Origin: a virus | IMG/VR virus record: IMGVR_UViG_3300006071_000736 | Span: 1-36,363 of that record | Length of the DNA: 36,363 nucleotides | Strand: one strand, 5' to 3' | Shown here: piece after piece, positions 2,911-36,363 of the stretch | Layout of the letters: every line of letters starts with the position of its first letter | How positions within the stretch are numbered: the stretch's first letter is position 1 | Position numbers and translations under genes: made by a program | The notes under the pieces: model-generated | Told to the model about the DNA's origin: nothing | Database searches by the model: none | Seen by the model: the letters and a program-made list of their open reading frames with translations, nothing else

Positions 2911-2939
2911 ATTATACTAACTTACCGTAATGCTGTCAA
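2911..2939 (-). promoter_or_regulatory. Perfect sigma70-type early promoter for primase
   Basis: On the minus strand TTGACA (2939-2934), a 17-base spacer and TATAAT (2916-2911) match the bacterial housekeeping consensus exactly. The -35 box and spacer lie inside the last codons and stop of the upstream structural gene. Predicted start of transcription is about 2904, two bases before the primase ATG. This separates the early primase/helicase unit from the late gene in front of it. Confidence 0.9.
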
Positions 2940-4023
2940 CAACTCCGGCGTAATTTGTGCCCGAAACAATGTAAGGGCCTCCATTGCCTGCTGTCGCTGT
3001 TCCTGTCCAAGTAACCGTAACGACTTCGCTAATTGTATAACTGGAACTAATTGCAGTTGAGGTTTCACCGAGTACACCGTTTACATTAATGATTAGATCG
3101 TTAACACCGTCTACTCCCCCGATTTGATGTCCGGGAATTTTAATCATTGAACCTTTAGTATATCCCGTACCGCCATACTTAATTGTTACATCATATGTGC
3201 CATTAGATTTAGAAACATAAAAAGTTGCACCTAGACCGTTAATATTAGGTGTTTGAAATGCAACTCTAAAGTAATTGTATCCACTTGTTGGAATCACTGC
3301 ACCATATGGAATAACTCCAGTGAACGACCCGTCATTGTAATTTTGATTCCAAGACCCGAACGGTTTTCCTGCTGCCATGAACGCTTCTTTGTTTATAGTA
3401 GAACTAGTAGTTGCTTCGATCCAAATAGAACCAACAAATCCTGTTGTTGCGATCTGGAAACTTAATATCTCTGTAGGAATTGCTTCGTAAAACTTACATG
3501 GTATTGCAGAACTATACCAAATAGGAATACCTTGTAAATCGACTTCGGCAGTAAAGTCCGAAAACACCCTCGGAGCTCTAGTAGCAGGCATTGCATCGCC
3601 GTCAAGTTCAATTGTACCGACTGCACCAAATTTGCTGTCACAATATAATGGAACTTGCGCTTGTGATGTTGCTTTTGTTGCTACTAGACTATATTTTAAG
3701 AATTGATTATTTAGACTTGATAAATCTTCTAATGGTATAGTAACAGTAGCAATTCCTTTTAAATTCGTAGCTATTACTGTATACGGACTATTTGGAAGAG
3801 CATTACCTGCGGCGTCCATTAAGTTCATTGTGATTGAGCTAAGTGTTGTTAGATCAATTCGTTTCTGGTCCGCGTTCTTAATATCGAACTCTATGGTATT
3901 GTTAATACCTCTATAAATCTTTACATTTCGTTGATACACGTTGGTATACTCCACATTGAAGCCCGCCAGATCGGCTAAGATTTGGACACGGTTTGGATAT
4001 AAATAACTTAGGATTTTTTGCAT
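2917..4023 (-). CDS. Virion structural protein with baseplate (BppU-like) N-terminal domain
   Basis: The 368-residue product is beta-rich and Gly/Thr/Ser-rich, as in tail or baseplate proteins. Residues about 25-125 (from RNVKIYRGINNTIEFDI, through ITMNLMDAAGN, to KGIATVTIPLEDL) resemble the N-terminal beta-sandwich of the BppU baseplate protein family. The C-terminal 100 residues contain YDVTIKYGGTGYTKG and a pattern of short beta strands, like receptor-binding or decoration modules. It is preceded by a late promoter motif (4042-4049), although its neighbours on both sides are replication genes. AAAGG about 9 bases before the ATG could serve as ribosome site. Exact place in the virion is not known; tail fibre or baseplate periphery is the best guess. 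Confidence 0.6.
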   Translation of the reverse strand: MQKILSYLYPNRVQILADLAGFNVEYTNVYQRNVKIYRGINNTIEFDIKNADQKRIDLTTLSSITMNLMDAAGNALPNSPYTVIATNLKGIATVTIPLEDLSSLNNQFLKYSLVATKATSQAQVPLYCDSKFGAVGTIELDGDAMPATRAPRVFSDFTAEVDLQGIPIWYSSAIPCKFYEAIPTEILSFQIATTGFVGSIWIEATTSSTINKEAFMAAGKPFGSWNQNYNDGSFTGVIPYGAVIPTSGYNYFRVAFQTPNINGLGATFYVSKSNGTYDVTIKYGGTGYTKGSMIKIPGHQIGGVDGVNDLIINVNGVLGETSTAISSSYTISEVVTVTWTGTATAGNGGPYIVSGTNYAGVVDSITVS

Positions 4024-4041: not shown

Positions 4042-4049
4042 TATTTATG
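4042..4049 (-). promoter_or_regulatory. Late promoter motif CATAAATA
   Basis: The minus strand reads CATAAATA, close to the T4 late consensus TATAAATA recognised by the phage sigma factor gp55. It lies 18 bases before the ATG of the structural gene ending at 2917 and would give a leader of about 13 bases. The motif overlaps the start codon of the plus-strand gene at 4047. Confidence 0.6.
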
Positions 4050-12472: not shown

Positions 12473-13618
12473 TTAATTCTTATTTAGATCTGCCAAAGTA
12501 AGAATACGATATAATTCAGAACTCTCACGAACTGTTCCTAAATTAGCCATTTGCTGATGTAGGCTTTGATTTGCCGGGGATTGTTGCCCCTTTGCCGCTT
12601 GCTGAGCCTTATACTTTTCTACCGCTGGATTCGCTGGAATATAAAACGGTGAATTAGGATCAGTTGTTTTTGGTTGTACTGGAGCAGTTGATGCTACTGG
12701 AGGATATGCCGCAGTTTGCCCTAATGGTGGTTCACCTTGCGGTGCTGCTTGTGCCGGCTGTCCACCTTGCGGTGCTGCTTTTTTTGGTGTGCGGTCGTTG
12801 ACTACTTGAAATCCTTTAGGCGGTGTAATACCTTTCTGTGCTAATGCTTGTTCAGTTCTCCAACCAATAAGTCCATCTGGTTTTAATCCGTTTGCCTTTT
12901 GGAAAGCAATAATTTCTTGCTTAGATGTAGGCCATTTAACAGCAGGTGTTGCAGATGCTCCTTGCGGTTGTGCTTGTGGTTGTGGAGTAGTTGCAGGCAA
13001 TGCTCCAGCAATTGGATTCTGCGGAGGTTGTGTTAGTTGAGATGCCGATGGCTGTTCTCTCCATTTATCAAAGTCAGCTGGATTAGTTTTTGCAGGTGCT
13101 GTTTGGGCAGGCGGAAGACCTGAAGGTTTTTGCTGTTGCATTGTTTGTTTTTGAGCAGTTTGTGCAGCAGTATCACCCCATCCTCCGATACGCGGGTCTG
13201 TACCTTTTGTTGCGGCTCTAGCAGCACCCCAGCCAGCTAGCCCTGCTGCTGCACCCGGAACTCCGCCCTGAAGTCCACCTTGGATTGCGGCAGTAACTGG
13301 AGATCCGCTAATTGTTCCTGGATCTTGAGCACCTCCTAACGCACCCCCTGCTCCTGCAGATGCTACTCCTAATTTTGATGTTGCTGGTTGTTTAGATGCA
13401 GATGTAGTTGAACCTGGTAATTTTGAACGGAGATCAGATGAACTACCACTTCCTGCAACTTTTTCTACATTAGGGGGATTAACTGTCGCAACACCTGTTG
13501 TGTTTGGTCTAGCAACCGCAGTTGATTGTGGTCCTGGCAATTGTTGATAATTCGGATACAGCGGCGGTTCTCCACTTAATTCATTGACTATTTCAATGTA
13601 TTCTCTCAATGTTTTCAT
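12473..13618 (-). CDS. Pro/Gln/Ala-rich probable virion protein with peptidoglycan-binding domain
   Basis: The 381-residue product begins MKTLREYIEIVNE, similar to capsid-targeting N-termini of T4 internal proteins, and then is mostly disordered (Pro, Gln, Ala, Gly). One folded module stands out at about residues 228-262: WPTSKQEIIAFQKANG, LKPDGLIGWRTEQAL, the pattern of a PG_binding_1 domain (repeat of helix, DG-x-x-G, T-x-x-A-L). A glycine/alanine-rich stretch near residues 90-135 (GAGGALGG, GLQGGVPGAAAGLAG) resembles hydrophobic segments of channel-forming or glycine-zipper proteins. It ends SSELYRILTLADLNKN. Its ATG overlaps the stop of the 639-residue gene (TAATG). A head-internal or ejected protein that touches the cell wall is plausible but not shown. 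Confidence 0.7.
   Translation of the reverse strand: MKTLREYIEIVNELSGEPPLYPNYQQLPGPQSTAVARPNTTGVATVNPPNVEKVAGSGSSSDLRSKLPGSTTSASKQPATSKLGVASAGAGGALGGAQDPGTISGSPVTAAIQGGLQGGVPGAAAGLAGWGAARAATKGTDPRIGGWGDTAAQTAQKQTMQQQKPSGLPPAQTAPAKTNPADFDKWREQPSASQLTQPPQNPIAGALPATTPQPQAQPQGASATPAVKWPTSKQEIIAFQKANGLKPDGLIGWRTEQALAQKGITPPKGFQVVNDRTPKKAAPQGGQPAQAAPQGEPPLGQTAAYPPVASTAPVQPKTTDPNSPFYIPANPAVEKYKAQQAAKGQQSPANQSLHQQMANLGTVRESSELYRILTLADLNKN
12733..12780. repeat. 18-bp direct repeat in coding DNA
   Basis: CACCTTGCGGTGCTGCTT occurs at 12733-12750 and again at 12763-12780, 30 bases apart. It encodes the repeated AAPQG unit of the disordered region and probably arose by slippage or local duplication. Confidence 0.85.
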
Positions 13619-15537
13619 TATTTTAATCCTGCTAATTTAATGATAGATTCCATTTCTTCATTAAAATGCAATCCATTTAATTCGTCCATAATTTCACCTA
13701 AGTGCAAATCTCTAGTATCACTAACAGTATCAACTTTTATTTCAGGTTGAATAGGTGCCGAAGTAGCAATCTGTGTACTCGGATCTTTCTTTTCGATAAA
13801 CTTTAATACCTTAATTAAATCTTCAGGAGTTGCATTTGGAAATTGGCCATCTTCGAATTCTTTTTTAATTTTAATCTTAATTCGTTCGCCGCCCAAAGGG
13901 AAATTTTTGTGTTCTCGATTGTAAAATCCAGAAACATATTTTAACATTTCGTTTAATCCGTCTTCACCGAAACTCTCTGCCATCGGAGGCATTGCAGCAG
14001 GTGCAGCTGGCGGTGCCATTCCTTGCGGAGCAACTGGTGGTGCTTCTACAGGTGCAGGAGCCGGTTCCGGAACCGGCTCCGGTTCTGTTGTCGGCGGTTC
14101 TTCGGGCTCTTCGGGCTCTTCCTCTGGTTCTTCAATTCCACTAAAATCTAAACTATCAGCAATATCCGGGTCAATAGACATAACATATTGTTGAATCAAC
14201 GGACGAACATCTAAGTCCGGATCAATATGTTTTAAATCTTCTATAAATGCAGGATCTTCGATAATGCCTTGCAAACTTTCGATTGCGTTAATCCCTTCTG
14301 GACCACCTTTAAGTTCAGTTTGCATTATATCATTTAAATTTTCAATTGCTTCTTTTTGTTCTGATCTATTTGCGCTAAACAACGGACCTTTATCAGTGTT
14401 ATCATCTACGTCAATTGCTTCCATAAATGATTCGAACTCAGAAATAGGATCAAATCCTTCATTTTTCGATTCGTGACACTTACAATTGGGCTTACCAGTT
14501 TTTGGACAAAGGTCTTCTTCACCTACTTCACTTAATAAGTCATCGGCTCCGAGTTCTTTAATTGGAATGTCTGACTCGTCAATGAATTTGTAAATGTATG
14601 GAAATGCTGCTTTTAATTCTTCATTAAAAGTGCGAATAGTTAAACGGTCCACAAGATCGTTTATAACGTCTTCAGGTAGGACCTGTTCATCTGATTCTTC
14701 ATATGATTCTACAAATGATTCGTAAAATGTTGGCTTTTGTAAATTATGAATTTGTTTCTTAATTTCTTCAATTCTTTCTGCAAGTTTACTAACAATACCT
14801 CCCATGTTTTCTGCAATCATCGGAGTACGGTTAACAAACCCTTTAAATTTTCTAATCTGTGCAAGTTCTTCACTTAATCCAGTGATATACTTGCCAACTG
14901 AATCATATGGATTACCACCGTGTTTTAAATGTTCTGCTAGCGCACGAGCACCATTTAAATGCTTGTATGGATATCTAAATCTCTCGCCTACTGCATTTTC
15001 AACATAAATGTGTTCAATATGCATTGTGCGTCCAGCGGGCAGTTCTGGATTAATGTGTTGGCTGTGCTTAATGACTAATCTTGCTTCGCCTAAATCTTGG
15101 TAACTAATTTTGCTAGTACCGAATAATTTGCTTTCCATAACGGGATATTCCTTACGTTTTGCTTGAAATTGATAATCTCTTTTATCTAGATTGCTCTTGC
15201 CGATGTTTTGAATATCAAAGTTTAATAATCGATCCTTGGCAAATTGTCTAAATGATCGAATGAATTTAAATGCACCATGACGAGTAGAATCATCTTCGTC
15301 ATTGGTAATATCACCGCTAACTTGAATGATTAAACCATCTTCCGAGTCTAGCGTAACAGTGATAGTACCTAACGGTTCACCACCTTCTTCATATTCGAAT
15401 TCAAAGAATCTAGCCTTGGGGATATCTTCTTTTTTGCTCAATACATTAGCGTTTTCATCGCCGATTTTAATGGCAGGAAAGCGTGTTTGTATTTTACCGT
15501 ACAGTTCTTTGGCAATTGTGTCTAAATTAGAGTCCAT
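13618..15537 (-). CDS. Large probable virion protein of unknown function, 639 residues
   Basis: Not recognised by function. Residues about 130-240 form the most conserved-looking part (FGTSKISYQDLGEARLVIKH, RTMHIEHIYVENAVGERFRY, GARALAEHLKHGG, LSEELAQIRKFKGF), a pattern found in many uncultured marine phages, from memory. A small cysteine cluster C344-x7-C352-x-C354-H355 (LCPKTGKPNCKC) could bind zinc. Residues about 465-520 are Pro/Glu-rich repeats. The segments ESFVESYEES and EFESFMEAID recall prohead-type peptides. The C-terminus ends EEMESIIKLAGLK. It directly follows gp17: the late promoter TATAAATA starts one base after the gp17 stop and lies four bases from this ATG, with no Shine-Dalgarno site, so the mRNA may be leaderless. 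Confidence 0.7.
   Translation of the reverse strand: MDSNLDTIAKELYGKIQTRFPAIKIGDENANVLSKKEDIPKARFFEFEYEEGGEPLGTITVTLDSEDGLIIQVSGDITNDEDDSTRHGAFKFIRSFRQFAKDRLLNFDIQNIGKSNLDKRDYQFQAKRKEYPVMESKLFGTSKISYQDLGEARLVIKHSQHINPELPAGRTMHIEHIYVENAVGERFRYPYKHLNGARALAEHLKHGGNPYDSVGKYITGLSEELAQIRKFKGFVNRTPMIAENMGGIVSKLAERIEEIKKQIHNLQKPTFYESFVESYEESDEQVLPEDVINDLVDRLTIRTFNEELKAAFPYIYKFIDESDIPIKELGADDLLSEVGEEDLCPKTGKPNCKCHESKNEGFDPISEFESFMEAIDVDDNTDKGPLFSANRSEQKEAIENLNDIMQTELKGGPEGINAIESLQGIIEDPAFIEDLKHIDPDLDVRPLIQQYVMSIDPDIADSLDFSGIEEPEEEPEEPEEPPTTEPEPVPEPAPAPVEAPPVAPQGMAPPAAPAAMPPMAESFGEDGLNEMLKYVSGFYNREHKNFPLGGERIKIKIKKEFEDGQFPNATPEDLIKVLKFIEKKDPSTQIATSAPIQPEIKVDTVSDTRDLHLGEIMDELNGLHFNEEMESIIKLAGLK
14057..14080. 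repeat. Perfect 24-bp GC-rich palindrome in coding DNA
   Basis: The 24 bases are an exact palindrome centred at 14068/14069 (core GCCGGTTCCGGAACCGGC). It encodes part of a Pro-Glu-Pro-Val-Pro-Glu-Pro stretch of the 639-residue protein. It is unusually GC-rich for this AT-rich genome and would form a strong cruciform or mRNA hairpin. Confidence 0.9.
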
Positions 15538-15541
15538 GTTA

Positions 15542-15549
15542 TATTTATA
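15542..15549 (-). promoter_or_regulatory. Exact T4-type late promoter TATAAATA
   Basis: The minus strand reads TATAAATA immediately after the TGA stop of gp17 (15552-15550). By T4 spacing transcription would begin at the ATG of the 639-residue gene (15537) within a base or two. Confidence 0.75.
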
Positions 15550-17145
15550 TCAAAATCCTGTTGAAACGAAAAGTGGTAATGGTGCTTCCCAATCATCGTC
15601 AAAATGGTGTCCTACGCTTAATTTTTCAAACACTAACGGATCCCATTCTGCTAAGGTTACACTCATCCTAACCATTAGTAATGCAGCAGAAACTAGGTCG
15701 TCGTGTTCACCTAATTTTGCTTTAAATGTAATATTATGTGCAATAAAGTTCTTTAATTCGCTGATTAGTGCTTTACTGTTAATAATCATTTTGTCTTCTT
15801 CGATTAAGAACTTTAACCTAGAACATGCGGAAATTTTACTTCCATGTGTTGTGTTGAATCCTTTTCTAAACTTTCTTACATGTCCTTTTTTCATCGGTTC
15901 GCATAAGAATAATCCCGGAAATGTTTCTTCACCCAAGTCTGCAACAACAACTAATCCCGCCTCGCCGACAGTATTATTTTCCATAGACCAATAAATGCTA
16001 TTTGCAGTATCTGGGCCAAGTTCTTCTTGTATATACAGCAAAATATCTCGAAGCATCTTAATTTGCCCTTGTATCGGTGTAATGTTATGTTGCCATTCAC
16101 CTACTTGTGTCATACTAGGTAATTCGAAAATCTGAATCCCTGCAAAATCGCCGCCTGTTCCTAAACTTGGATCTAATGCAACTAGATAGATGTTGCCCGG
16201 TTCGATTTTCTTATACCAACGAACTTGTCCAACTTTATACAGAGGATCTTTACCTGTAAGTTCTGAAAGTTTAATACTGTTAATTAATGTTTCATCATAT
16301 ACTAAGAATTCGCAACCGTATTCACGTCTAAACTTTTCTTCACCAATACGTCCTAGTTCTGCTTGCCGCCATGCTTCGTCTCTGTCAGGATGATCGCTCC
16401 ATGCTGATCGAAAACCATAGAATCCATTAATACCCTTACCGTCTGCTCTTTCGTTACCAAACTCATCAAATTTATTTTGACTTTCTTTCCAAATGGTAGC
16501 AAATGTATCTTCGTCCGAGTTTGGTGTAGATGTAATAATTGCGCGTCCACCTGTTGCTAGTGTAGGTGAAATGGATGTCCAAAACTCTTCCGCAATGTTA
16601 GGTTGTACGAACGCAAACTCGTCACAGTATAATAACGAGATAGACATACCACGTCCTGTATTTCCTGTAGTAGTTGCACTTACAATACGAGACCCGTTGT
16701 CAAATTCGATTGATCCTTTATTGTAACTTACAACACCTGCACGTACATAGTCTGGACATAATTCGTATCCATATCGAATACGCTGCATGATTTCTTGAGC
16801 ACCCGTATATTTGTGAGCTGCTACAAGAATGGTTTGATCCGGATGAAACATTGCAAACCAAAGTAAGTATGCACTAGCACAAGTTGTTTTACCACTCTGT
16901 CGAGGTAACATATTGACGTTAAATCGATGATTATGATAACTGCCCATTAAATTTATTTGATAGTCAAACGGTTCAAATAAAAGTTTACCTTTTACTGCGT
17001 GTTGAATATAAAAGAAATGTTTTGCAAAATGTAGATAACCTGTATTATTATCAATACATGCTGCAAGATGGAGCATTTGCTCTTCTGTAAATTGTTCTCT
17101 TGAATGAGCCTTTTTAGTCAAGACTCCGTCTAATGATTTAGCCAT
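15550..17145 (-). CDS. 17: Terminase large subunit gp17
   Basis: This is the ATP-driven motor and nuclease that packages DNA into the prohead. I start at the ATG at 17145 (MAKSLDGVLTKK, 531 residues); the frame continues upstream only through a TTG inside a terminator hairpin. Walker A is PRQSGKTT at residues 81-88, Walker B with the catalytic glutamate is LLYCDE at 171-176, and the coupling motif is TSTPNS at 205-210. The RNase-H-like nuclease has D325 in LVALDPSLGTGGD and a late acidic pair in HDDLVSAALL near 497. T4 gp17 is 610 residues, so this one is compact. A late motif lies five bases before the ATG, and there is no Shine-Dalgarno site. Confidence 0.95.
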   Translation of the reverse strand: MAKSLDGVLTKKAHSREQFTEEQMLHLAACIDNNTGYLHFAKHFFYIQHAVKGKLLFEPFDYQINLMGSYHNHRFNVNMLPRQSGKTTCASAYLLWFAMFHPDQTILVAAHKYTGAQEIMQRIRYGYELCPDYVRAGVVSYNKGSIEFDNGSRIVSATTTGNTGRGMSISLLYCDEFAFVQPNIAEEFWTSISPTLATGGRAIITSTPNSDEDTFATIWKESQNKFDEFGNERADGKGINGFYGFRSAWSDHPDRDEAWRQAELGRIGEEKFRREYGCEFLVYDETLINSIKLSELTGKDPLYKVGQVRWYKKIEPGNIYLVALDPSLGTGGDFAGIQIFELPSMTQVGEWQHNITPIQGQIKMLRDILLYIQEELGPDTANSIYWSMENNTVGEAGLVVVADLGEETFPGLFLCEPMKKGHVRKFRKGFNTTHGSKISACSRLKFLIEEDKMIINSKALISELKNFIAHNITFKAKLGEHDDLVSAALLMVRMSVTLAEWDPLVFEKLSVGHHFDDDWEAPLPLFVSTGF

Positions 17146-17150
17146 AATAT

Positions 17151-17158
17151 TATTTACA
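17151..17158 (-). promoter_or_regulatory. Late promoter-like motif before gp17
   Basis: The minus strand reads TGTAAATA, then ATATT and the gp17 ATG. The 16 bases TAAATAATATTATGGC are identical to those at the start of the tube-like gene (21248), where the motif is CATAAATA. The first two bases differ from the consensus. Confidence 0.5.
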
Positions 17159-17160
17159 AG

Positions 17161-17186
17161 AAAAACGGGCAAAAATGCCCGTTTTT
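17161..17186. terminator. Strong bidirectional hairpin terminator before gp17
   Basis: AAAAACGGGC (17161-17170) and GCCCGTTTTT (17177-17186) pair perfectly with a six-base loop; T's follow the stem on both strands. It terminates the minus-strand unit that ends with the gene at 17215-18336. Confidence 0.88.
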
Positions 17187-17214
17187 GAACTAAGATACGC
17201 CAACGACTGCGTTC

Positions 17215-18336
17215 TTATTTACTAAAGGAAATTGGCTTCTTTGGAACAGAATCCTTAAATGGTTTCCAATGACCGTACTTGTGATTATCGACAATATAAA
17301 GAATAATCAAATATCTACCATGTTCGTCTTTCTTCTTTACTTCGTCAACTACATCCTTTGCACCCCAGTTGTGTCTTTTAAAGATATCTTCTTCTCTGAA
17401 AGCTCCGACGTAGTTTGGCGCATCAATGACAAATAATTTATTGTATTTTTCTCCATTCGGTGCAGCACCTTCTTGATCAACATACTCGGATTTAACAGTT
17501 TTTTGATGATGCGCAAATCCTTTTTGCCATTTATCTAAAATGTCACCTTCGATATCTTTTTGTGATCCAGTACCTGGAATTCTATAATCATCCGGTTCTT
17601 CATCACCGCCACGATTTTTACCACGGCTCGGACCGTCACCGTCTGGATATCTTCCGCCCCATGTTTCAGGATCGCCATAACCAGGCATATTTCGATCATT
17701 ATAACTTGCTTCGTTCATTGATCTGTTTTTTATATCTTCGTAATGTTTTAACAACTTAGCAGCGATAGATGATTCGCTAACATTCCAAGGGTTTCCACCC
17801 CCTGCTTGCTTAGGTGCTTCTTTACCTTTACTCGATAAATCATCGCCTAAATCCGTAATTGCAGCAACAGATTTAATTCGAACATCTGGTCTATTTGCGT
17901 AATCCTCTTCTGCTGGTTCTTCGTCGAGTGATTCTTCTTCTGGTGCAAATCCCATGAATTCTTCTTCCTCTTCAGATCCCAACATTGCTGGTTCAACTTC
18001 TGCAGGTTCCCCAATAATAACATCGTCATCACCGTGTGGTTCGTGATGCGGTTCTGGTTCTTTATCATGTACTACATCTTCGATATTGCGTAAAATATTC
18101 ATTAAATCACGAATACCTCCTGCACCTTGTCCGTTCATAGTAACATTCATACTAACTGAATCTTGCTGTTTGGGTGCGTCATGGTGCATTGGCATATCGC
18201 CACCACATTCTCCCATTCCACCACATTCACCGATCGGAGCAGATGGTGGTGCCGAAATTGCTTGCGGCATCATGTTACCTTGAGAAAGACCTTCATCTAA
18301 TTGTCTAATTTTTTTATATAAATCTAAAAAGTTCAT
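17215..18336 (-). CDS. Acidic probable internal or core protein, 373 residues
   Basis: The protein is not recognised by function. It starts MNFLDLYKKIRQLDEG, an amphipathic N-terminus ending in LDE, which matches the L/I-x-E rule for cleavage by T4 prohead protease gp21. After a His/Met/Gly/Cys-rich part (GECGGMGECGGDMPMHH) comes VSMNVTMNGQGAGGIRDLMN, a short beta-helix unit. A very acidic region (SEEEEEFMGFAPEEESLDEE) follows, then a polar region with many Gly, Pro and Asp (NMPGYGDPETWGGRYPDG). The last 80 residues look folded (YNKLFVIDAPNYVGAF, YLIILYIVDNHKYGHW). It is coupled to the 205-residue gene by TAATG and ends at a terminator. Its position between small and large terminase genes suits a head protein. 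Confidence 0.65.
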   Translation of the reverse strand: MNFLDLYKKIRQLDEGLSQGNMMPQAISAPPSAPIGECGGMGECGGDMPMHHDAPKQQDSVSMNVTMNGQGAGGIRDLMNILRNIEDVVHDKEPEPHHEPHGDDDVIIGEPAEVEPAMLGSEEEEEFMGFAPEEESLDEEPAEEDYANRPDVRIKSVAAITDLGDDLSSKGKEAPKQAGGGNPWNVSESSIAAKLLKHYEDIKNRSMNEASYNDRNMPGYGDPETWGGRYPDGDGPSRGKNRGGDEEPDDYRIPGTGSQKDIEGDILDKWQKGFAHHQKTVKSEYVDQEGAAPNGEKYNKLFVIDAPNYVGAFREEDIFKRHNWGAKDVVDEVKKKDEHGRYLIILYIVDNHKYGHWKPFKDSVPKKPISFSK

Positions 18337-18953
18337 TATCTTATCCTTGTTGCTGGGTCAGGATTGCTAACCTTTGAAAGAACCGTTGTATCGTTCTGCT
18401 TTACTGATCCTGCTGCTGGACCTTTAGGTGAACTAGGAACACTTTTTGCTAAGATTTCATCGTTGACCCCCTTATACTGTTCAAGGTCATGTTTAGTCTT
18501 ATTAAGTTCTTTTAGCAAATTCATTTTTTGTGTTTCACCGACTTGATCTTGTGCTCCACCTTTTTCATAATCTTTTAACAATAAAGATTCATTTGACTTA
18601 ACGTCATGTTGGTGATTAAGTGTGGTTTCTTCTTCTTCTTTTAAGTTTCGAACTTTAACACAACATGGTGTTAATTTTAATTGATTTGCTACTAACTCGC
18701 GTAGTTGTGGCGAATTTGCAGGATAAGCAAGAGACACGTCATAAAGTGTTACACCGATATTTTTCTTCTCAGGAAAATCGATTTGGGTTTCTTGAATAGG
18801 AATGCTTTTTCCTTCTGAACAAGATTCTACTTTAAATTGTGTCAATGCTGCTTTAATGCCATCGCAATGACCTTTACCGTGTTCGCCTGCAATCTTAATC
18901 TTAAATTCGTAAGACTTTTTGCTTTCTGTTAAATATTCTTTGTATGTTTTCAT
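18336..18953 (-). CDS. Probable internal head protein with capsid-targeting-like N-terminus, 205 residues
   Basis: The first ten residues MKTYKEYLTE line up one to one with MKTYQEFIAE, the capsid-targeting start of T4 internal protein IPIII, including the L/I-x-E cleavage position for prohead protease (cut would fall after residue 10). The remainder has a small alpha/beta domain (YEFKIKIAGEHGKGHCDGIK, QIDFPEKKNIGVTLYDVSL, ANQLKLTPCCVKVRN), a ferredoxin-like pattern, and a polar helical tail (MNLLKELNKTKHDLEQYKG). It has a late promoter with a 13-base leader and a TGGAA site. A protein packed into the head and cleaved during maturation is the inference; proof needs virion proteomics. Confidence 0.6.
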   Translation of the reverse strand: MKTYKEYLTESKKSYEFKIKIAGEHGKGHCDGIKAALTQFKVESCSEGKSIPIQETQIDFPEKKNIGVTLYDVSLAYPANSPQLRELVANQLKLTPCCVKVRNLKEEEETTLNHQHDVKSNESLLLKDYEKGGAQDQVGETQKMNLLKELNKTKHDLEQYKGVNDEILAKSVPSSPKGPAAGSVKQNDTTVLSKVSNPDPATRIR

Positions 18954-18971
18954 GGCATAGTTCCAATACTA

Positions 18972-18979
18972 TATTTATT
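18972..18979 (-). promoter_or_regulatory. Late promoter motif AATAAATA
   Basis: AATAAATA on the minus strand contains the TAA stop of gp16 (18977-18975). It lies 18 bases before the ATG of the 205-residue gene and gives a leader of about 13 bases, the same geometry as the motif at 4042-4049. Confidence 0.6.
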
Positions 18980-19463
18980 TCATATTCTTTAATTTTTCTA
19001 GTAGGCTATTGCGATCGGTGACAATATATCCATCGCCGGTCATATCGATACCTTTATCTGCACCAACTGCATCTTGATCTAATTTAGCTTTCTTTAATTG
19101 AAGTTCGATCATCTTTAATTTTTTATCAATCTTTGCAGCCTTGGCATCGATAGCGTTCTTAAGCATCGAACCAGCAACTTCAAATATCCTGCCGCTGTAT
19201 CGTGCTTCAACATTCATACCTAGATCCATTAAATCATCGTATGCATCGGTTGCTCGTTGTGCTAATTCGTCAAATTCTTTATCACTAACATCACCTAAAC
19301 CTTTGACTTGAGGTAATGAAGCAGCGATTTTGTCAAATTCTGCTATGTCTCTAAAGAATGGATCGGGTTCGGGTTTCGAAATCGATGAAATCTTTTTTTC
19401 TTCTTGCTCGATAATTTCTTTATTTTCAGGCAAGTTTAAAAGTTGTTCTAATTTTTTAGTCAT
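18975..19463 (-). CDS. 16: Terminase small subunit gp16
   Basis: The 162-residue helical protein fits T4 gp16 (164 residues), which recognises DNA and regulates gp17. It has a polar N-terminal part, a central helical core (FDELAQRATDAYDDLMDLGM, EARYSGRIFEVAGSML) and a long basic coiled-coil helix (NAIDAKAAKIDKKLKMIELQ, LKKAKLDQDA) like the oligomerising hairpin of small terminases. It ends YIVTDRNSLLEKLKNMK. Unlike T4, where genes 16 and 17 are adjacent, two other genes separate it from gp17 here. Identification rests on length, pattern and location. Confidence 0.75.
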   Translation of the reverse strand: MTKKLEQLLNLPENKEIIEQEEKKISSISKPEPDPFFRDIAEFDKIAASLPQVKGLGDVSDKEFDELAQRATDAYDDLMDLGMNVEARYSGRIFEVAGSMLKNAIDAKAAKIDKKLKMIELQLKKAKLDQDAVGADKGIDMTGDGYIVTDRNSLLEKLKNMK

Positions 19464-19471
19464 AATGTTAC

Positions 19472-19906
19472 TTATCTTCCGCCTTGATGGAACAAATCAT
19501 TTTCATTAACGATTCTAAATTTAATACCGTTTTGTCTACACCATATTTGTGCAGCAGCCCATTTTGCTTGATTTTTAATAAATTGTGCTTGATTAGATTT
19601 GTTTTTTCCTACCCGTTCTAGGATAGATTGACTAGCAGGTTTTATTTCAATTAATTCAACAAGAATTTTTCCAAGTTTATCTACGTATTGAATAAAAAAA
19701 TCTGGTACATAAATTGTGTTACGGCCAGTTAATGGATCTCTATATGGGATCGATATTGCTTCACTAGCCCATTTTTGTATACTTTCATTTGTATCGCAGA
19801 AGTTCATAAAATGCCATTCCCAAGAACTTCTATATATAGGTACTTTGGTACCTACATATTTTTCCGGGTGCTTCATGTTGAATTTACCGCGGGCAAATTT
19901 ACTCAT
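19472..19906 (-). CDS. 4: Head completion protein gp4
   Basis: The 144-residue protein matches the T4 gp4 (also gp50/65) head-completion protein, which closes the filled head so that the tail can attach. The family pattern is clear: GKFNMKHPEKYVG, YRSSWEWHFMNFCD, WASEAISIPYRDPLTGR, YVPDFFIQY, LVELIEIKP and KWAAAQIWCRQNGIKFRIV. The acidic residues in VPDF and the E-x-K in LIEIKP are arranged as in nuclease folds of the PD-(D/E)xK class. Its ATG overlaps the stop of the preceding gene (ATGA), and gp16 begins nine bases after its stop. Confidence 0.9.
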   Translation of the reverse strand: MSKFARGKFNMKHPEKYVGTKVPIYRSSWEWHFMNFCDTNESIQKWASEAISIPYRDPLTGRNTIYVPDFFIQYVDKLGKILVELIEIKPASQSILERVGKNKSNQAQFIKNQAKWAAAQIWCRQNGIKFRIVNENDLFHQGGR

Positions 19907-20268
19907 ACAACAATATTTCTAATATCGAAATCACTAACTAATGGTTTAACTCTATATCCAAGTAAACTGGTTTTTTCTCGATATGCGTTAAGAACTTGAG
20001 CAACTACTTGACTTAATTCTACGTCAGATAACTGTTTTAATGTATCAATTAACGTGAAAACATCGACGTTATCGGCCCTAGCTTGATTTAATAATACTAT
20101 AGAAACGCTTCTAGCACTTTGTATATCAAATCCATTCTTTAGAAAGAATCCTATAGTTGCATCAATTTGTGCTGCGGGAAAGCTAACTGAATGTAAGAAA
20201 AACTTATCAAAGAATTGTCTTACGTCAGTATTTGGTAATTGGGTATCCGGCGGTAAATTATTAATCAT
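19903..20268 (-). CDS. Virion-associated type protein of unknown function, 121 residues
   Basis: A helical protein starting MINNLPPDTQLPNTDVRQFF, with VSFPAAQIDATIGFFLKNGF, a helix SARSVSIVLLNQARAD and VFTLIDTLKQLSDVELSQVV. I recall near-identical proteins beside gp4 in cyanophages, where they are called structural or hypothetical. The gene is tied to both neighbours by ATGA overlaps and belongs to the late unit that starts at 21261. Role is unknown; a neck, connector or head-tail joining accessory factor is possible. Confidence 0.7.
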   Translation of the reverse strand: MINNLPPDTQLPNTDVRQFFDKFFLHSVSFPAAQIDATIGFFLKNGFDIQSARSVSIVLLNQARADNVDVFTLIDTLKQLSDVELSQVVAQVLNAYREKTSLLGYRVKPLVSDFDIRNIVV

Positions 20269-21248
20269 ATATTAAGGTTAACTGGATTTGCAACAGTTAA
20301 AGTATCCGATGGCTGATTATTTGGAAATACAATTCCCTGAAGCCCGCTCACACTTTGAGCAGATGCGCTAGTAGCGGATTGTATAATTCCAGAAATAGTG
20401 CCTGTAGGCAATGGTGTTTGTGTATTCTGATATGTGTTAACGGTAGTATTAGCATTATCAAACGATGACAATGAAACATTAGATACAAAACTAGGACTAG
20501 CATTAGGACTAATAGTTCCACTTAATGGCGATGGTGTAAGATCGTAATGTGTCTCGGCAAATCCAATCGGTTCGCCGTCTCCTACATTTCCTGCATCATA
20601 AGAGACTGCTTCGTATTGCACTTCCATAGTGTTTTCATGTGTTGTAGTCTCAAAATATGATACGTTTTGATGATTCCATTTTGTAATTACAGGATTATGC
20701 AATGTATATGAAACGTATTCATGTCTCGCCATTTGATATATTTTAATGTAATTAAAAAATGGAACTGTGCTACCGTTATTTAAACCGTAAGTATCAAACA
20801 TATAACTAAAATTTTTCATGGCTGTTCTAGCATATGCTCCTGGATCTTTAGCTGACGAGGGGTCTGCATAATAATAGTTATAATAGTTTTGCCATAATTG
20901 ATTGATAACACCCATATTATCATCGTGAAATTTAATATTAATAGCATTGTAATTATGTGTTGTTTGAATTACTTTTTTTCTATTATATTGATTTAGTGTC
21001 TCGGTTTTTAGTTCAAAACTAGGCAAATCACAAGTTTTAACTAACATGTTAATTTCATTACTGTGTCGCTGTAACAAACTAGCATCCATTAACGTTGACG
21101 GATTAATACCAAATGCAACATGAAATAAAAACTTAAATTTCGGTGCTAATCTAAATTGGTCGTCAACAAATAATCTAGCCGCAGTTTGAGAATCGCGAAT
21201 ATTTATATTGCTGCTATGATTTAATGATGATGCGGGTGTGAATGCCAT
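20265..21248 (-). CDS. Tail-tube-fold structural protein (gp19/gp54-like)
   Basis: The 327-residue protein shares the tail-tube pattern: FKFLFHVAFGI, a NEINMLVKTCDLPSFELKTE segment, the TLNQYNRKKVIQTTHNYNAI segment and NIKFHDDNMGVINQLWQNYY. These occupy residues 37-140 and match the order of strands in gp19 and in the T4 tube-initiator gp54 (320 residues). The last 100 residues are Ser/Thr/Pro-rich and probably extended. It stands alone behind a late promoter after the gp19 terminator. It may be the tube initiator or a second tube protein. The ATG has no Shine-Dalgarno site; the late motif puts the transcription start on the ATG itself. Confidence 0.7.
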   Translation of the reverse strand: MAFTPASSLNHSSNINIRDSQTAARLFVDDQFRLAPKFKFLFHVAFGINPSTLMDASLLQRHSNEINMLVKTCDLPSFELKTETLNQYNRKKVIQTTHNYNAINIKFHDDNMGVINQLWQNYYNYYYADPSSAKDPGAYARTAMKNFSYMFDTYGLNNGSTVPFFNYIKIYQMARHEYVSYTLHNPVITKWNHQNVSYFETTTHENTMEVQYEAVSYDAGNVGDGEPIGFAETHYDLTPSPLSGTISPNASPSFVSNVSLSSFDNANTTVNTYQNTQTPLPTGTISGIIQSATSASAQSVSGLQGIVFPNNQPSDTLTVANPVNLNI

Positions 21249-21253
21249 AATAT

Positions 21254-21261
21254 TATTTATG
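21254..21261 (-). promoter_or_regulatory. Late promoter motif CATAAATA
   Basis: CATAAATA followed by ATATT and ATG. By T4 spacing (motif at -13 to -6) the transcript begins on the A of the start codon at 21248. It follows the gp19 terminator by 39 bases. Confidence 0.65.
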
Positions 21262-21299
21262 CATAAGAATTAACCGGGTATAAAACAGGTAGTCAAGAG

Positions 21300-21326: not shown

Positions 21327-21947
21327 TTAAGCGCCGCTTGCCGATGCAGCAGTACCGACTGCTCTAGTAGTCGGAGGATTTTCTCCACCTGTAACTTCTA
21401 AGCAGTTATCTGGTTGAATTGTTAATGTGATCATTAATGGATCTTGTTTAGTATAATCCATTTCGCCATATTCGTACTTAGTAACATAGCAACCATAACA
21501 TTCCCATGTTTCTAAGACACTAGGTGTAAATGCGCCGTTACCGCCATCTAAGACTTCGATTCTTAATAAGAACTTATAATCACCGCCGGACGCAGCACTA
21601 CTTTGTTCAAAGAAATCAAATTGCTTTTGCATCTGTTCGCCAACTAATTTGCTGACTGCACCAGTTACATCGTCACGAAGTTTAACAGTAATTGCGTTCC
21701 ATTTAGGACGACCCATATAATTAACACGCGAATTATAAACCCATAATTCTTGGTTTTCTGATTCCATTTGTGGTCTTCCTGCCGACAATACTTGCTTTGT
21801 AAGTTCAGTAGTCGGTGTAGAAACTCCAAAATTTTCAAATGAGATTCTAAAACGATATGCTAACTTCGGCATCAATAAGCCTTGTGTGGCTGCACTCTGA
21901 TCCGATGCTAGCGGTACCGTAAATTTTGATAAAGATGAAATAGCCAT
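21327..21947 (-). CDS. 19: Tail tube protein gp19
   Basis: The 206-residue protein is the major inner tail tube subunit (T4 gp19: 163). Diagnostic parts are KLAYRFRISFENFGVSTPT, ELTKQVLSAGRPQ, WNAITVKLRDDVTGAVSKLV, FKFLLRIEVLDGGNG as FLLRIEVLDG, and the C-terminal WECYGCYVTKYEYGEMDY followed by MITLTIQPDNC. It follows the sheath gene by 11 bases and has a good AAGGGAG ribosome site, so sheath and tube are produced together; a TTCG-loop terminator comes next. Confidence 0.92.
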   Translation of the reverse strand: MAISSLSKFTVPLASDQSAATQGLLMPKLAYRFRISFENFGVSTPTTELTKQVLSAGRPQMESENQELWVYNSRVNYMGRPKWNAITVKLRDDVTGAVSKLVGEQMQKQFDFFEQSSAASGGDYKFLLRIEVLDGGNGAFTPSVLETWECYGCYVTKYEYGEMDYTKQDPLMITLTIQPDNCLEVTGGENPPTTRAVGTAASASGA

Positions 21948-25248: not shown

Positions 25249-25256
25249 TATTTATA
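25249..25256 (-). promoter_or_regulatory. Exact T4-type late promoter TATAAATA for sheath
   Basis: TATAAATA on the minus strand, 33 bases before the sheath ATG; predicted leader about 27 bases with a GGAG ribosome site. Exact match to the T4 late consensus. Confidence 0.8.
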
Positions 25257-25304: not shown

Positions 25305-25341
25305 AAAGGCCTAATGAAATTAAATACAGTATGAGGCCTTT
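25305..25341 (-). terminator. Inverted repeat ending the gp1 transcript
   Basis: AAAGGCCT (25305-25312) and AGGCCTTT (25334-25341) can pair with a 21-base loop; on the minus strand TTATTGACC and then six T's follow. It would stop early gp1 transcription before the late sheath promoter. The same repeat spans the start codon (25331) of the plus-strand zinc/HNH gene. Confidence 0.5.
25319..25326 (+). promoter_or_regulatory. Possible late motif before the zinc/HNH gene
   Basis: ATTAAATA on the plus strand, four bases before the ATG at 25331. It is weaker than the other late motifs, but its spacing to the ATG is the same as at 15542-15549. Confidence 0.35.
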
Positions 25342-25666
25342 ATGCAAGTGCGGATTACGCCCTAAAGCCGTGAATTATATCAAAGACGGGCGCACACACT
25401 ATCGTAAACTATGTAATGTGTGTCTAAATCACGGGGTATATCACGGTATTCCCCGATGGTATCGTAGTGGTTATAGACAGAAGAACACTTGTGATAAATG
25501 CGGATTTAAATCACCGCACAAAGAAGTATTTGCAGTCTTCCATATCGACGGTGATTTAAACAACTGTAAAGCCAATAATCTTAAAACAGTATGTGCTAAC
25601 TGTCAGAGAATATTGCACAAAGAAGGAGTTATATGGCGACAGGGAGACCTAACACCTGATCTCTAA
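25331..25666 (+). CDS. Zinc-ribbon/HNH-like protein, 111 residues
   Basis: I start at the ATG at 25331 (MRPLCKCGLRPKA) because the open frame upstream overlaps the sheath start and looks non-coding. Two zinc sites can be read: C5, C7, C28, C31 and C54, C57, C88, C91. Between them is an HNH-type core, VFHIDGDLNNCKANNLKTVC (H71, D73, N77, N83), the pattern of small HNH endonucleases and their non-cutting relatives. The same protein, ending in QGDLTPD, recurs in marine T4-like phages as a conserved unknown, from memory. That conservation argues for a role in phage growth (for example DNA packaging or processing) rather than a homing enzyme. It has no Shine-Dalgarno site and its last 38 bases overlap gp1 on the other strand. 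Confidence 0.8.
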   Translation: MRPLCKCGLRPKAVNYIKDGRTHYRKLCNVCLNHGVYHGIPRWYRSGYRQKNTCDKCGFKSPHKEVFAVFHIDGDLNNCKANNLKTVCANCQRILHKEGVIWRQGDLTPDL

Positions 25667-27120: not shown

Positions 27121-27128
27121 TATTTATG
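27121..27128 (-). promoter_or_regulatory. Late promoter motif CATAAATA for gp13
   Basis: Minus strand CATAAATA, 17 bases before the gp13 ATG, with an AGGAG site between. It is back to back with the plus-strand late motif at 27134. Confidence 0.65.
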
Positions 27129-27133
27129 CTTCG

Positions 27134-27141
27134 CTAAATAT
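27134..27141 (+). promoter_or_regulatory. Late promoter motif CTAAATAT for gp14
   Basis: CTAAATAT on the plus strand, 17 bases before the gp14 start, with AGGAGAC as ribosome site. CTAAATA is a late-type variant I recall from cyanophages. With the motif at 27121 it forms a divergent late promoter pair only five bases apart. Confidence 0.55.
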
Positions 27142-27158
27142 ATAATAGGAGACTAATA

Positions 27159-28592
27159 ATGCCACGGCTCTCACTTTATAAACCCGAGAAAGGTAATAAC
27201 TATAAATTTATCGATCGTCAGATTTCCCAGATGTTTCAAGTAGGGGGCACTGATTGCTTCGTCCATAAGTATATAGGTTCAAATACTAATCCGGAAAATG
27301 CAACTGCTGACCAACCTAATTATACAACAACTGCGGTAACAAATATTCAAGATTTGTTATTTTTAGAAAATAGGGATAGGAAATACGACGAAGAAATTTA
27401 TCGTATTCGTGGGATTTATAATGTACAAAATATCGATTTTAATTTAAGTCAATTTGGCTTGTTTATTGACAACGATACACTTTTCATGACCATACATATT
27501 AATGACTTTATTAACTATGTTGGTAGAAAACCTATTAGCGGCGATGTACTCGAAATGCCGCATTTACGAGATGATTTTGCACTTAACAACTTTGATATGG
27601 CATTACCTCGTTATTATGTAATCGAAGATGTGGGTCGTGCTAGCGAAGGTTTTAGTGCAACATGGTATCCGCACTTATACCGTTTAAAATTGAAAAGAGT
27701 TACGAATTCGCAACAATTTGCTGACATTTTTAATAAACCAGCACTTGATGCAAACGGCGATCCTGTACCAGATACTACATTGCAGGATTTAATTAGTAAT
27801 TACAATACTCGTTCACAGATTAATGATAGTCTTATTCAACAAGCAGAAGCCGATGCACCACAAAGCGGATATGAAACTAGACAATTCTACACCATGGCTG
27901 TTGATCCTACGACTGGTCGACCATTATTAGAAACTGCTGATGAAACAATACTCGATGCTAGCCAATATGGTAGCAATATTAATGCGAGTAGTATCGATGC
28001 TGTTCCACTAAGAACGGGATATACCGGCTACTTAGTAGGCGATGGCTATCCTCAAAATGGTTACGTTTTTGGTCACGGTATTCAATTTCCAGCAAATCCA
28101 GCATTAGATGATTTCTTTTTACGAACAGATTTCATGCCAAATAGACTGTTTAGGTTCAATGGTTCCGGTTGGACTAAAGTAGAAGATGCGGTTAGAATGA
28201 CGATGACTAACAATGATACTCGTCAAACACTTAAAACTAGCTTCATCAATAACACCAATTATATCTACAATGAGTCAGTTGGTGTAGATTATATCAATTT
28301 AGAAGCAGGGGATAATACTATCGATACTGAAATCGATTATATAGTAGCTAATTATGTGGTATTTAAGTTCGAAAGTACCGAAGTATCATTTGCACTAGCT
28401 GATTTTTCAGGATTAATTAGTTCATATAACAACGCATTTAATGTTGCAAAAGTTAGAGTAACATTACCGATAATTGATACTGTACAACAAGTAGTATCAG
28501 AATCCGGATTATGGAAAATAACGTTGTGTAACAATCGGGTAGAACAGCGTCAAAGTCTTAGCAAGGCACTTAAACCGAGGGCAGATTTCTAA
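27159..28592 (+). CDS. 14: Neck protein gp14
   Basis: The protein (477 residues) is longer than T4 gp14 (256) but keeps its pattern. It starts MPRLSLYKPEKGNNYKFIDR; then VGGTDCFVHKYIG, IQDLLFLENRDRKYDEEIYR, FGLFIDNDTLFMTIHINDF, SGDVLEMPHLRDDF and LPRYYVIEDVGRASEGFSAT correspond to the T4 segments FGMQVQDEVTLSINP, GDLIYFP and FEINWVEPYDPFYQ. The C-terminal half is beta-rich and specific to this group. It joins gp13 to close the head and bind the tail. gp15 starts at its stop by TAATG overlap, so both are made from one message. Confidence 0.82.
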   Translation: MPRLSLYKPEKGNNYKFIDRQISQMFQVGGTDCFVHKYIGSNTNPENATADQPNYTTTAVTNIQDLLFLENRDRKYDEEIYRIRGIYNVQNIDFNLSQFGLFIDNDTLFMTIHINDFINYVGRKPISGDVLEMPHLRDDFALNNFDMALPRYYVIEDVGRASEGFSATWYPHLYRLKLKRVTNSQQFADIFNKPALDANGDPVPDTTLQDLISNYNTRSQINDSLIQQAEADAPQSGYETRQFYTMAVDPTTGRPLLETADETILDASQYGSNINASSIDAVPLRTGYTGYLVGDGYPQNGYVFGHGIQFPANPALDDFFLRTDFMPNRLFRFNGSGWTKVEDAVRMTMTNNDTRQTLKTSFINNTNYIYNESVGVDYINLEAGDNTIDTEIDYIVANYVVFKFESTEVSFALADFSGLISSYNNAFNVAKVRVTLPIIDTVQQVVSESGLWKITLCNNRVEQRQSLSKALKPRADF

Positions 28593-33809: not shown

Positions 33810-34724
33810 TTATGACATTGCTATTGCAATTGCTATTGATTTTGTGTCAACATACCGTTTGTTTGTAAGATGACTAGAAGATGTTGGTAATGTCGATTGT
33901 GTTGCTATTCCACCGATCGTTAGATTTCCTGTTATATTTACTGAATCGCTTACTCCAATTCCACCCGTCACGACTAATGCGCCTGTTAATGCTGAAGTCG
34001 ATGCTGTGGTTGAACTAATTGTGTGGGTTGCTGATGTAGCTGTTAATGAAAATACGCCTGTGCTAGCTAATGTGCTAAATCTACCAGTACCTGCTGTTGT
34101 AGCACCAATATTTATGTTATTAATTGCTCCAGTAGTCGACGGCGAAAGAGCAACATTAGTAGTTGCAGTTAATGCAGTAAATGTTCCGGCTTTTGGAGAT
34201 ACAGTTCCGATATTTGTATTATCTAACGTACCTGTGCTGCTTGGATTATTTTTTACATAGGGAATACTCGAACTGTCCGTTAATGTTCCTGAAATAGTAA
34301 CATTCGTAAACTTAGCAGATTGGGCGGTAGTTAAACCAATTGCAACATTGTCCATATATCCAGTTGCGTTTGATGCAATTGTTATCGAACCGTTTGTACC
34401 TGTTCCAATACTTACAGTCCCGTTTGCCCCCGAAGTTATTGTAAGCGAGCCGGTTGATGTTAATCCAAGTGTATTAGTTGCATTTAACTGAATAGTACCG
34501 GTACTTGCTGATATATTTCCTTGTACAGTTAATGATAAAAGTGTACCTAACTGGGTTAACCCGCTACTAACAATATTACTCGGTAACGAAGTAGTAGATG
34601 CGCTAATAGGAACGCCGTTAACTTGGAACTGACCTGCGATGTTAACGTTTCCGTTAGCATCGACCGTGAATCCCGGCGAAATAAATCCATATTCAGATCT
34701 GAGTGCTAATTGGTTTACTGACAT
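33810..34724 (-). CDS. Short fibre-like protein with repeated beta units, 304 residues
   Basis: Starts MSVNQLALRSEYGFISPGFT and consists of short repeated beta units, including the phage fibre signature of the type G-x-I/L-D/N-N-x-x-I-G, as in TGTLDNTNIGTVSPKAGTF, TGAINNINIGATTAGTGRF, and TGYMDNVAIGLTTAQSAKF, each followed by TLTAT/TLAST or TVTIS. The C-terminal part GIGVSDSVNITGNLTI and SHLTNKRYVDTK is the usual end-of-shaft or chaperone-adjacent motif of tail fibres. It is behind a late motif and is most likely a tail-fibre or baseplate-fibre component; the host receptor is unknown. Confidence 0.75.
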   Translation of the reverse strand: MSVNQLALRSEYGFISPGFTVDANGNVNIAGQFQVNGVPISASTTSLPSNIVSSGLTQLGTLLSLTVQGNISASTGTIQLNATNTLGLTSTGSLTITSGANGTVSIGTGTNGSITIASNATGYMDNVAIGLTTAQSAKFTNVTISGTLTDSSSIPYVKNNPSSTGTLDNTNIGTVSPKAGTFTALTATTNVALSPSTTGAINNINIGATTAGTGRFSTLASTGVFSLTATSATHTISSTTASTSALTGALVVTGGIGVSDSVNITGNLTIGGIATQSTLPTSSSHLTNKRYVDTKSIAIAIAMS

Positions 34725-34745: not shown

Positions 34746-34753
34746 TATTTATG
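34746..34753 (-). promoter_or_regulatory. Late promoter motif CATAAATA
   Basis: Minus strand CATAAATA, 21 bases before the fibre-like gene; leader about 16 bases with AGAGAAA as a weak ribosome site. Confidence 0.6.
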
Positions 34754-35652: not shown

Positions 35653-36363
35653 TTATTGATCTGTCTGAATCGCTAATACATAATAATTACCACAAGCGAC
35701 CTGTTTCCAATTAGTTAGTGATCCAATTTGAATCGGCGAGGAATAAAGTATACCTATTGTTCCATTACCTAAATTACCAAGACTGTTCCAACCCCAAGTC
35801 CATACCGTACCATTAGATTGTATTACTGCTGTATATTGATATCCACAAGCGACCTGTTTCCAGTTAGTTAGTGATCCAATTTGAATCGGTGATGAATAAT
35901 TAATTCCAGATGTGCTATTACCTAATGCTCCATTACTACCAAATCCCCACGTCCATAAAGAACTATCGGTTTTGATTACTGCTATATGCTGTTGTCCGCA
36001 AGCAACTTGTTTCCAATTAGTTAATGTGCCTACTTGAACTGGCGAATTTTGATTGACTAATGCAGGATCATTATTACCTAATTGGCCGAACCCATTAACA
36101 CCCCAAGTCCATAATGTTCCATTAGTTTTAATTGCAGCAGTCATATAATTACCACATGATACTTGTTTCCAGTTAGTATCCGTACCTACTTGAATCGGTG
36201 AGGAATAAAATATACCAGTCGTTCCATTACCTAATTGACCATAGGCATTATATCCCCAAGCCCATAAAGTACCATCAGTTTTAATAGCTTCTATGTGATA
36301 ATAACCGCAAGCAACTTGTTTCCAATTAGTTAATGTGCCTACTTGAACTGGCGAATTTTGATT
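35653..36363 (-). CDS. RCC1-repeat beta-propeller protein, C-terminal part, cut by window edge
   Basis: The frame is open to the right edge, so 236 residues of a longer protein are seen; an internal ATG at 36144 is not the start. It consists of repeated 51-52-residue units of the RCC1 type, each with TNWKQVACG, AIKTDG/VIKTDS, LWTWG, N-GQLGN and SSPIQVG. RCC1 propellers have about seven blades; four to five are visible. In phages such propellers occur in fibre-associated or adhesion proteins, but the role here is not shown. It ends VLAIQTDQ. No ribosome site or start is visible. Confidence 0.85.
   Translation of the reverse strand, partial: NQNSPVQVGTLTNWKQVACGYYHIEAIKTDGTLWAWGYNAYGQLGNGTTGIFYSSPIQVGTDTNWKQVSCGNYMTAAIKTNGTLWTWGVNGFGQLGNNDPALVNQNSPVQVGTLTNWKQVACGQQHIAVIKTDSSLWTWGFGSNGALGNSTSGINYSSPIQIGSLTNWKQVACGYQYTAVIQSNGTVWTWGWNSLGNLGNGTIGILYSSPIQIGSLTNWKQVACGNYYVLAIQTDQ
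35691..36363. repeat. Tandem RCC1 blade repeats at DNA level
   Basis: Units begin at about 35691, 35844, 35997, 36153 and 36306, spacing 153, 153, 156 and 153 bases. The 59 bases at 35996-36054 are identical to those at 36305-36363, two units (309 bases) away, and continue to the window edge, which indicates recent duplication or exchange. Confidence 0.9.

Follow-up and report, generated by a model that had tools for sequence, protein, structure and literature searches.

Several late genes in this stretch of phage DNA have a T4-type late promoter box almost touching the start codon and no Shine-Dalgarno (SD) site, raising the question of whether their messages begin at the AUG itself. The window (the whole 36,363-base stretch analysed) is a fragment of a jumbo T4-like myovirus, with genes for large terminase, sheath, tube and neck proteins and for UvsX-, UvsY-, gp32- and helicase-like proteins. 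Its clade, a group of giant T4-like phages, looks large and for the most part uncultured: among named phages, gp17 is closest to that of Pseudomonas phage PA5oct (53% identity), and the tube-like and 639-aa proteins match only weakly; gp17 matches in environmental contigs reach 80% identity. A search of bacterial contigs with gp17 for host identity gave no match.

Close-box and leader genes in the window

The initial annotation described TAAATA 4-5 nt before ATG, without an SD site, at four genes (639-aa, gp17, tube-like and HNH), set against genes with a more distant box and an SD site (starts at 25216, 27103 and 27159). All of these positions were verified, and the four close-box genes have no SD match of at least 4 nt. 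A fifth close case, the small-terminase-like gene, was absent from that annotation and has a variant box.

Close-box genes and their boxes:
13618..15537, minus strand: 639-aa virion structural protein (phrog_13484); leaderless candidate, no SD
15542..15549, minus strand: late promoter box TATAAATA of the 639-aa gene; TATAAATA-TAAC-ATG, 4 nt to ATG 15537
15550..17145, minus strand: gp17, large terminase (phrog_36964, phrog_2); leaderless candidate, no SD
17151..17156, minus strand: gp17 late promoter core TAAATA; TGTAAATA-ATATT-ATG, 5 nt to ATG 17145
18975..19463, minus strand: small-terminase-like gene (phrog_445, phrog_16202); leaderless candidate
19469..19474, minus strand: variant late box TAAGTA (GATAAGTA), 5 nt to ATG 19463
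20265..21248, minus strand: divergent tail-tube-like protein (phrog_4542); leaderless candidate, no SD
21254..21259, minus strand: late promoter core TAAATA of the tube-like gene; CATAAATA-ATATT-ATG, 5 nt to ATG 21248
25321..25326, plus strand: late promoter core TAAATA of the HNH gene; TTAAATA-CAGT-ATG, 4 nt to ATG 25331
25331..25666, plus strand: HNH endonuclease gene, 111 aa (phrog_1571); leaderless candidate

Late promoter cores of leader-class genes:
4042..4047, minus strand: gene 2917-4023; 18 nt to ATG, AAGG
18972..18977, minus strand: gene 18336-18953; 18 nt to ATG
25249..25254, minus strand: sheath gene; 32 nt to ATG 25216, GGAG
27121..27126, minus strand: neck gene (gp13-like); 17 nt to ATG 27103, AGGAG
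27135..27140, plus strand: gene 27159-28592; 18 nt to ATG, AGGAG
34746..34751, minus strand: fibre-like gene 33810-34724; 21 nt to ATG

The box of the 639-aa gene starts straight after the gp17 stop codon (TGA, 15552-15550). The tube-like gene is separate from the main tube gene (21327-21947), which has an SD site. Orthologues of the HNH gene in three relatives (G004, G012 and G014) also have the box at 4-5 nt. Most orthologues of the small-terminase-like gene carry ATAAGTA at the same spacing, and those in G009, G010 and G012 have TAAATA at 5 or 7 nt; this exchange of TAAATA and TAAGTA at fixed spacing fits a promoter. The 16 bases said to be common to gp17 and the tube-like gene, TAAATAATATTATGGC, are found in the window at these two places and nowhere else, although a copied 16-bp cassette is ruled out by spacers that differ among orthologues of both. 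Three close cases in the window were scored, where the clade-wide rate at 8-15 nt predicts ~0.15, and given the clade-wide count and the conservation among orthologues the pattern is far beyond chance.

Two further features of the window were recorded. The N-termini of the products of 18336-18953 (phrog_2667 match), 17215-18336 and 12473-13618, all on the minus strand (MKTYKEYLTES, MKTLREYIEIVNE etc.), resemble the capsid-targeting sequence of T4 internal head proteins, as do N-termini in relatives (MRVIDILNES, MKVKEILTEG). An RCC1-like repeat protein (regulator of chromosome condensation families; 35653-36144, minus strand) adjoins the tail-fibre-like genes at the window end.

Box-to-start distances across the clade

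Distances from TAAATA to ATG were counted in the window and ten relatives (91 to 356 kb each), together 11 records, several of them fragments, with 1,923 genes. Genes were open frames of at least 80 codons, called mechanically with the first ATG as start, and an SD match was at least 4 nt. The distribution is sharply bimodal: 135 genes have the box at 4-7 nt, 17 at 8-15 nt and 230 at 16-31 nt, so that the close class makes up about a third (135/382) of genes having a box at 4-31 nt. Hexamers made by permuting the letters of TAAATA, excluding those that overlap it, gave 4-14 genes at 4-7 nt, and a box resembling TATAAATA precedes late and structural genes beyond chance.

Absence of an SD site tracks the short distance. 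SD matches were found in 8% of genes at 4-7 nt (11/135, each an SD-like match in a close-class gene), 41% at 8-15 nt and 70% at 16-31 nt (161/230), and in 50% of genes without a box (close versus far, Fisher p=2e-33); with one gene per family the difference persists (5/82 close versus 102/152 far, p=2e-21). The far class starts at the distance where an SD site and its spacing first fit. Start codons also differ, with ATG to GTG/TTG ratios of 148 to 5 at 4-7 nt and 259 to 43 at 16-31 nt (p=2e-4). The boxes themselves have the same flanks in both classes (A before the box; behind it C/T, then A/T at positions five and six), and in neither do the 22 nt upstream contain much information that could represent a -35 element. 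Less structured or A-rich 5′ coding ends were also considered, and these do not clearly set the two classes apart.

In A/T-rich, compact genomes promoters might simply drift up to start codons without forming a functional class, and the 639-aa promoter, confined to the 12 nt that separate its gene from gp17, illustrates such compaction. Other A/T-rich or T4-like genomes make this very improbable: the box never falls at 4-7 nt in T4 (35% GC), KVP40 or S-PM2, and does so at a single gene in PA5oct (33% GC). Chance drift would also have to account for exact spacing held across deep divergence and for the nearly empty zone at 8-15 nt. Pattern counts in Phosso, 121Q, Atu_ph07 and Vibrio phage 2.275.O gave no clear excess.

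Conservation, the gp17 terminator and switching among orthologues

The box lies at 4 or 5 nt from the start of gp17 in 50 of 52 non-redundant loci and of the 639-aa gene at all 78 covered starts (two other loci are partial and do not include the start), and at 4-5 nt from the tube-like gene in nearly all of 80 loci. Many more distant relatives of gp17 have it at 5 nt, one group using TAAGTA. Across the counted records, 53% of reciprocal best orthologues of close-class genes are themselves close-class (base rate 7%); about a third have the box at neither distance, some of them from turnover or start-call errors.

Where a family contains both states, SD sites are absent from 32/34 close members and present in 13/16 far members. 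For gp17, G004 has the box at 24 nt with AAAGGA, while L055 keeps the terminator and box and has a leader with AAAGGA added behind them. The reverse arrangement is seen at 27159-28592, leader-class in the window, whose orthologues in G002, G003, G014, G015 and G016 are of leaderless type without an SD site. Leader and SD site are gained together when orthologues switch state.

Upstream of gp17 the box is preceded by a terminator:
17161..17186, minus strand: terminator hairpin AAAAACGGGCA-TTTT-TGCCCGTTTTT, fold -16 kcal/mol; ends 4 nt before the gp17 TAAATA

A hairpin plus T run ending 1-5 nt before TAAATA is found in 49 of 50 non-redundant gp17 loci. Because the terminator adjoins the promoter, read-through RNA should be removed, and a leaderless mRNA should be the main message; hardly any other transcript would supply the gene.

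The terminator also bears on a reading in which the box is not a promoter at these genes but acts in RNA, as an SD-free binding element for ribosomes or S1 on longer transcripts from upstream promoters. A/T-rich sequence ahead of an AUG can help SD-free initiation, and many close-class genes lie within same-strand gene runs. At gp17, however, the terminator would cut the upstream RNA right before the box, and L055 and G004 keep terminator and box even with a leader and AAAGGA added behind. The flanks shared with far-class boxes likewise suit a promoter, a general A/T enhancer would not leave 8-15 nt empty, and the permuted A/T hexamers have no such peak. Overall, an RNA element seems unlikely, and the promoter reading is preferred.

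In many relatives (L083-L154) a palindrome, ATTAACTACGTAGTTAAT, precedes the tube-like gene by ~25-45 nt, a local exception to the absence of conserved sequence upstream of the box; in the window it is degenerate, near 21280. As a general late element it was rejected, being rare elsewhere in the genomes and found mainly before this gene; it may be a regulator site or a weak terminator.

The class extends to the cultured pelagiphage HTVC008M, in which twelve close-class genes were identified, eleven with the box at exactly 5 nt and two of the twelve with an SD site, together with six further genes with leaders. Its close class includes the DNA end protector, head completion, tail completion, tape measure and baseplate parts, and it encodes a late sigma factor. 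HTVC008M resembles the window clade in having boxes at 4-5 nt, but differs in being one of the Kyanoviridae, in its 147-kb genome and in a spacing that is almost always exactly 5 nt. No description of its late genes as leaderless was found in the literature searched.

Misassigned starts would give the same picture if translation began inside the called frame, at an ATG served by a normal SD site, and the RNA had an ordinary leader; starts were indeed called mechanically, and that of the HNH gene was shifted by hand. There is very little room for this explanation, as homology of gp17 and the 639-aa protein begins at residue 1 in nearly all relatives and the called starts in HTVC008M equal those of the depositors in 11/11 checked.

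Late promoters and the two classes

The initial annotation proposed a designed leaderless late class. The class is supported by the near-empty middle zone, the link to SD absence and its recurrence in ten relatives and HTVC008M; 'designed' is better replaced by 'conserved by selection', and leaderless mRNA is what we infer from the geometry. Late transcription would use a T4-type promoter with a -10 box only, read by a gp55-like sigma factor; binding of the box by gp55-RNA polymerase is suggested by homology and motif. A gp55 homologue was found in six relatives (phmmer, E 3e-8 to 9e-7) and none in the window, which is a fragment; no clear match to the sliding clamp gp45 was found (best E 0.06). 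Promoters of T4 late genes (TATAAATA, served by gp55/gp33/gp45; PMC2988020, PMC7892883) share the -10 box and the kind of gene it precedes, and likewise have no conserved -35, although T4 has no boxes at 4-7 nt whereas the clade has 135/382, lacking SD sites. ATAAATA precedes structural genes in the related jumbo phage CBB (PMC5259590).

In T4 the first base of the 8-bp box is -13 (PMC2988020), and +1 was placed by this analogy. A start 6 nt past the box, the T4 distance, would coincide with the A of ATG wherever the gap is 5 nt. Very probably, then, gp55-type late promoters are set with +1 on the AUG and give leaderless mRNAs, RNA starting at the first base of the start codon or no more than ~2 nt from it; for the close-class genes at 6-7 nt the predicted leaders are 1-2 nt. 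Ribosomes would engage the 5′ AUG directly without a Shine-Dalgarno helix, as in known leaderless translation. In the far class the same box would be far enough upstream for an SD-bearing leader, and intermediate distances would be avoided as giving leaders too short for an SD site.

Leaderless mRNAs are known from lambda cI transcribed from PRM (PMC4965119), mycobacteria (PMC4633059) and Caulobacter (PMC4117421). These have a 5′-terminal AUG, no SD site and a strong preference for AUG, and the clade is alike in predicted 5′ AUG, SD absence and ATG preference. Unlike them, the clade's would form a systematic class tied to the late promoter of one sigma factor, with orthologues that switch to leader plus SD in phages otherwise using SD sites. 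Searches of the openly licensed literature returned no report of T4-like phages having a leaderless late class.

Among phage translation factors, no IF3 or S1-domain protein was found. A bS21 homologue is encoded in five related records (G001, G002, G009, G010 and G017), that of G002 being nearest to Methylophilaceae and other betaproteobacteria (59-61%), a host lead only. Phage-encoded bS21 was rejected as the cause of the class, to which it is not specific because PA5oct and Phosso also encode it. In G001, 27 tRNA genes and one tmRNA candidate lie within a 20-kb stretch (260-280 kb; L172).

The two classes differ in content. More than 42% G, A, T, S and N residues are found in 37% of far-class proteins, which are often fibre- or coat-like, versus 2% of the close class, where terminase parts, completion proteins, enzymes (epimerase, AlgH-like, phosphoesterase, CHASE2-cyclase) and possible internal head proteins occur. 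Gene types and composition fit a stoichiometry device, and for its purpose we infer that the close class probably provides weaker initiation for low-copy late proteins beside high-copy structural proteins with leader and SD site. As separate observations, a rough capsid-targeting-like pattern is enriched in the leaderless class (14/135 versus 23/1443 without a box), and the CHASE2-domain adenylate/guanylate cyclase of G002 (contig of L062; 167615-169657, plus strand) is leaderless-class, as is a cyclase gene of HTVC008M (11972), an unusual late phage gene.

A broader proposal, offered tentatively, is that late genes served by one promoter type are sorted at the level of translation, leader length setting either SD-dependent initiation (high-copy proteins) or 5′-AUG initiation (low-copy proteins and enzymes). 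Ribosomes altered by the phage, or the conditions for initiation late in infection, might favour the 5′-AUG route, and such sorting would have emerged or spread within at least two lineages of T4-like phages.

In the textbook case of T4, late messages should carry SD leaders, yet a large environmental group and one cultured pelagiphage appear to use the same promoter for leaderless messages of essential virion genes, terminase among them. Annotation is affected too: close-class starts may be misplaced by gene callers whose scoring gives weight to SD sites. Natural sets of orthologues with and without a leader would offer a route to studying leaderless translation in SD-using bacteria and the role of leader length.
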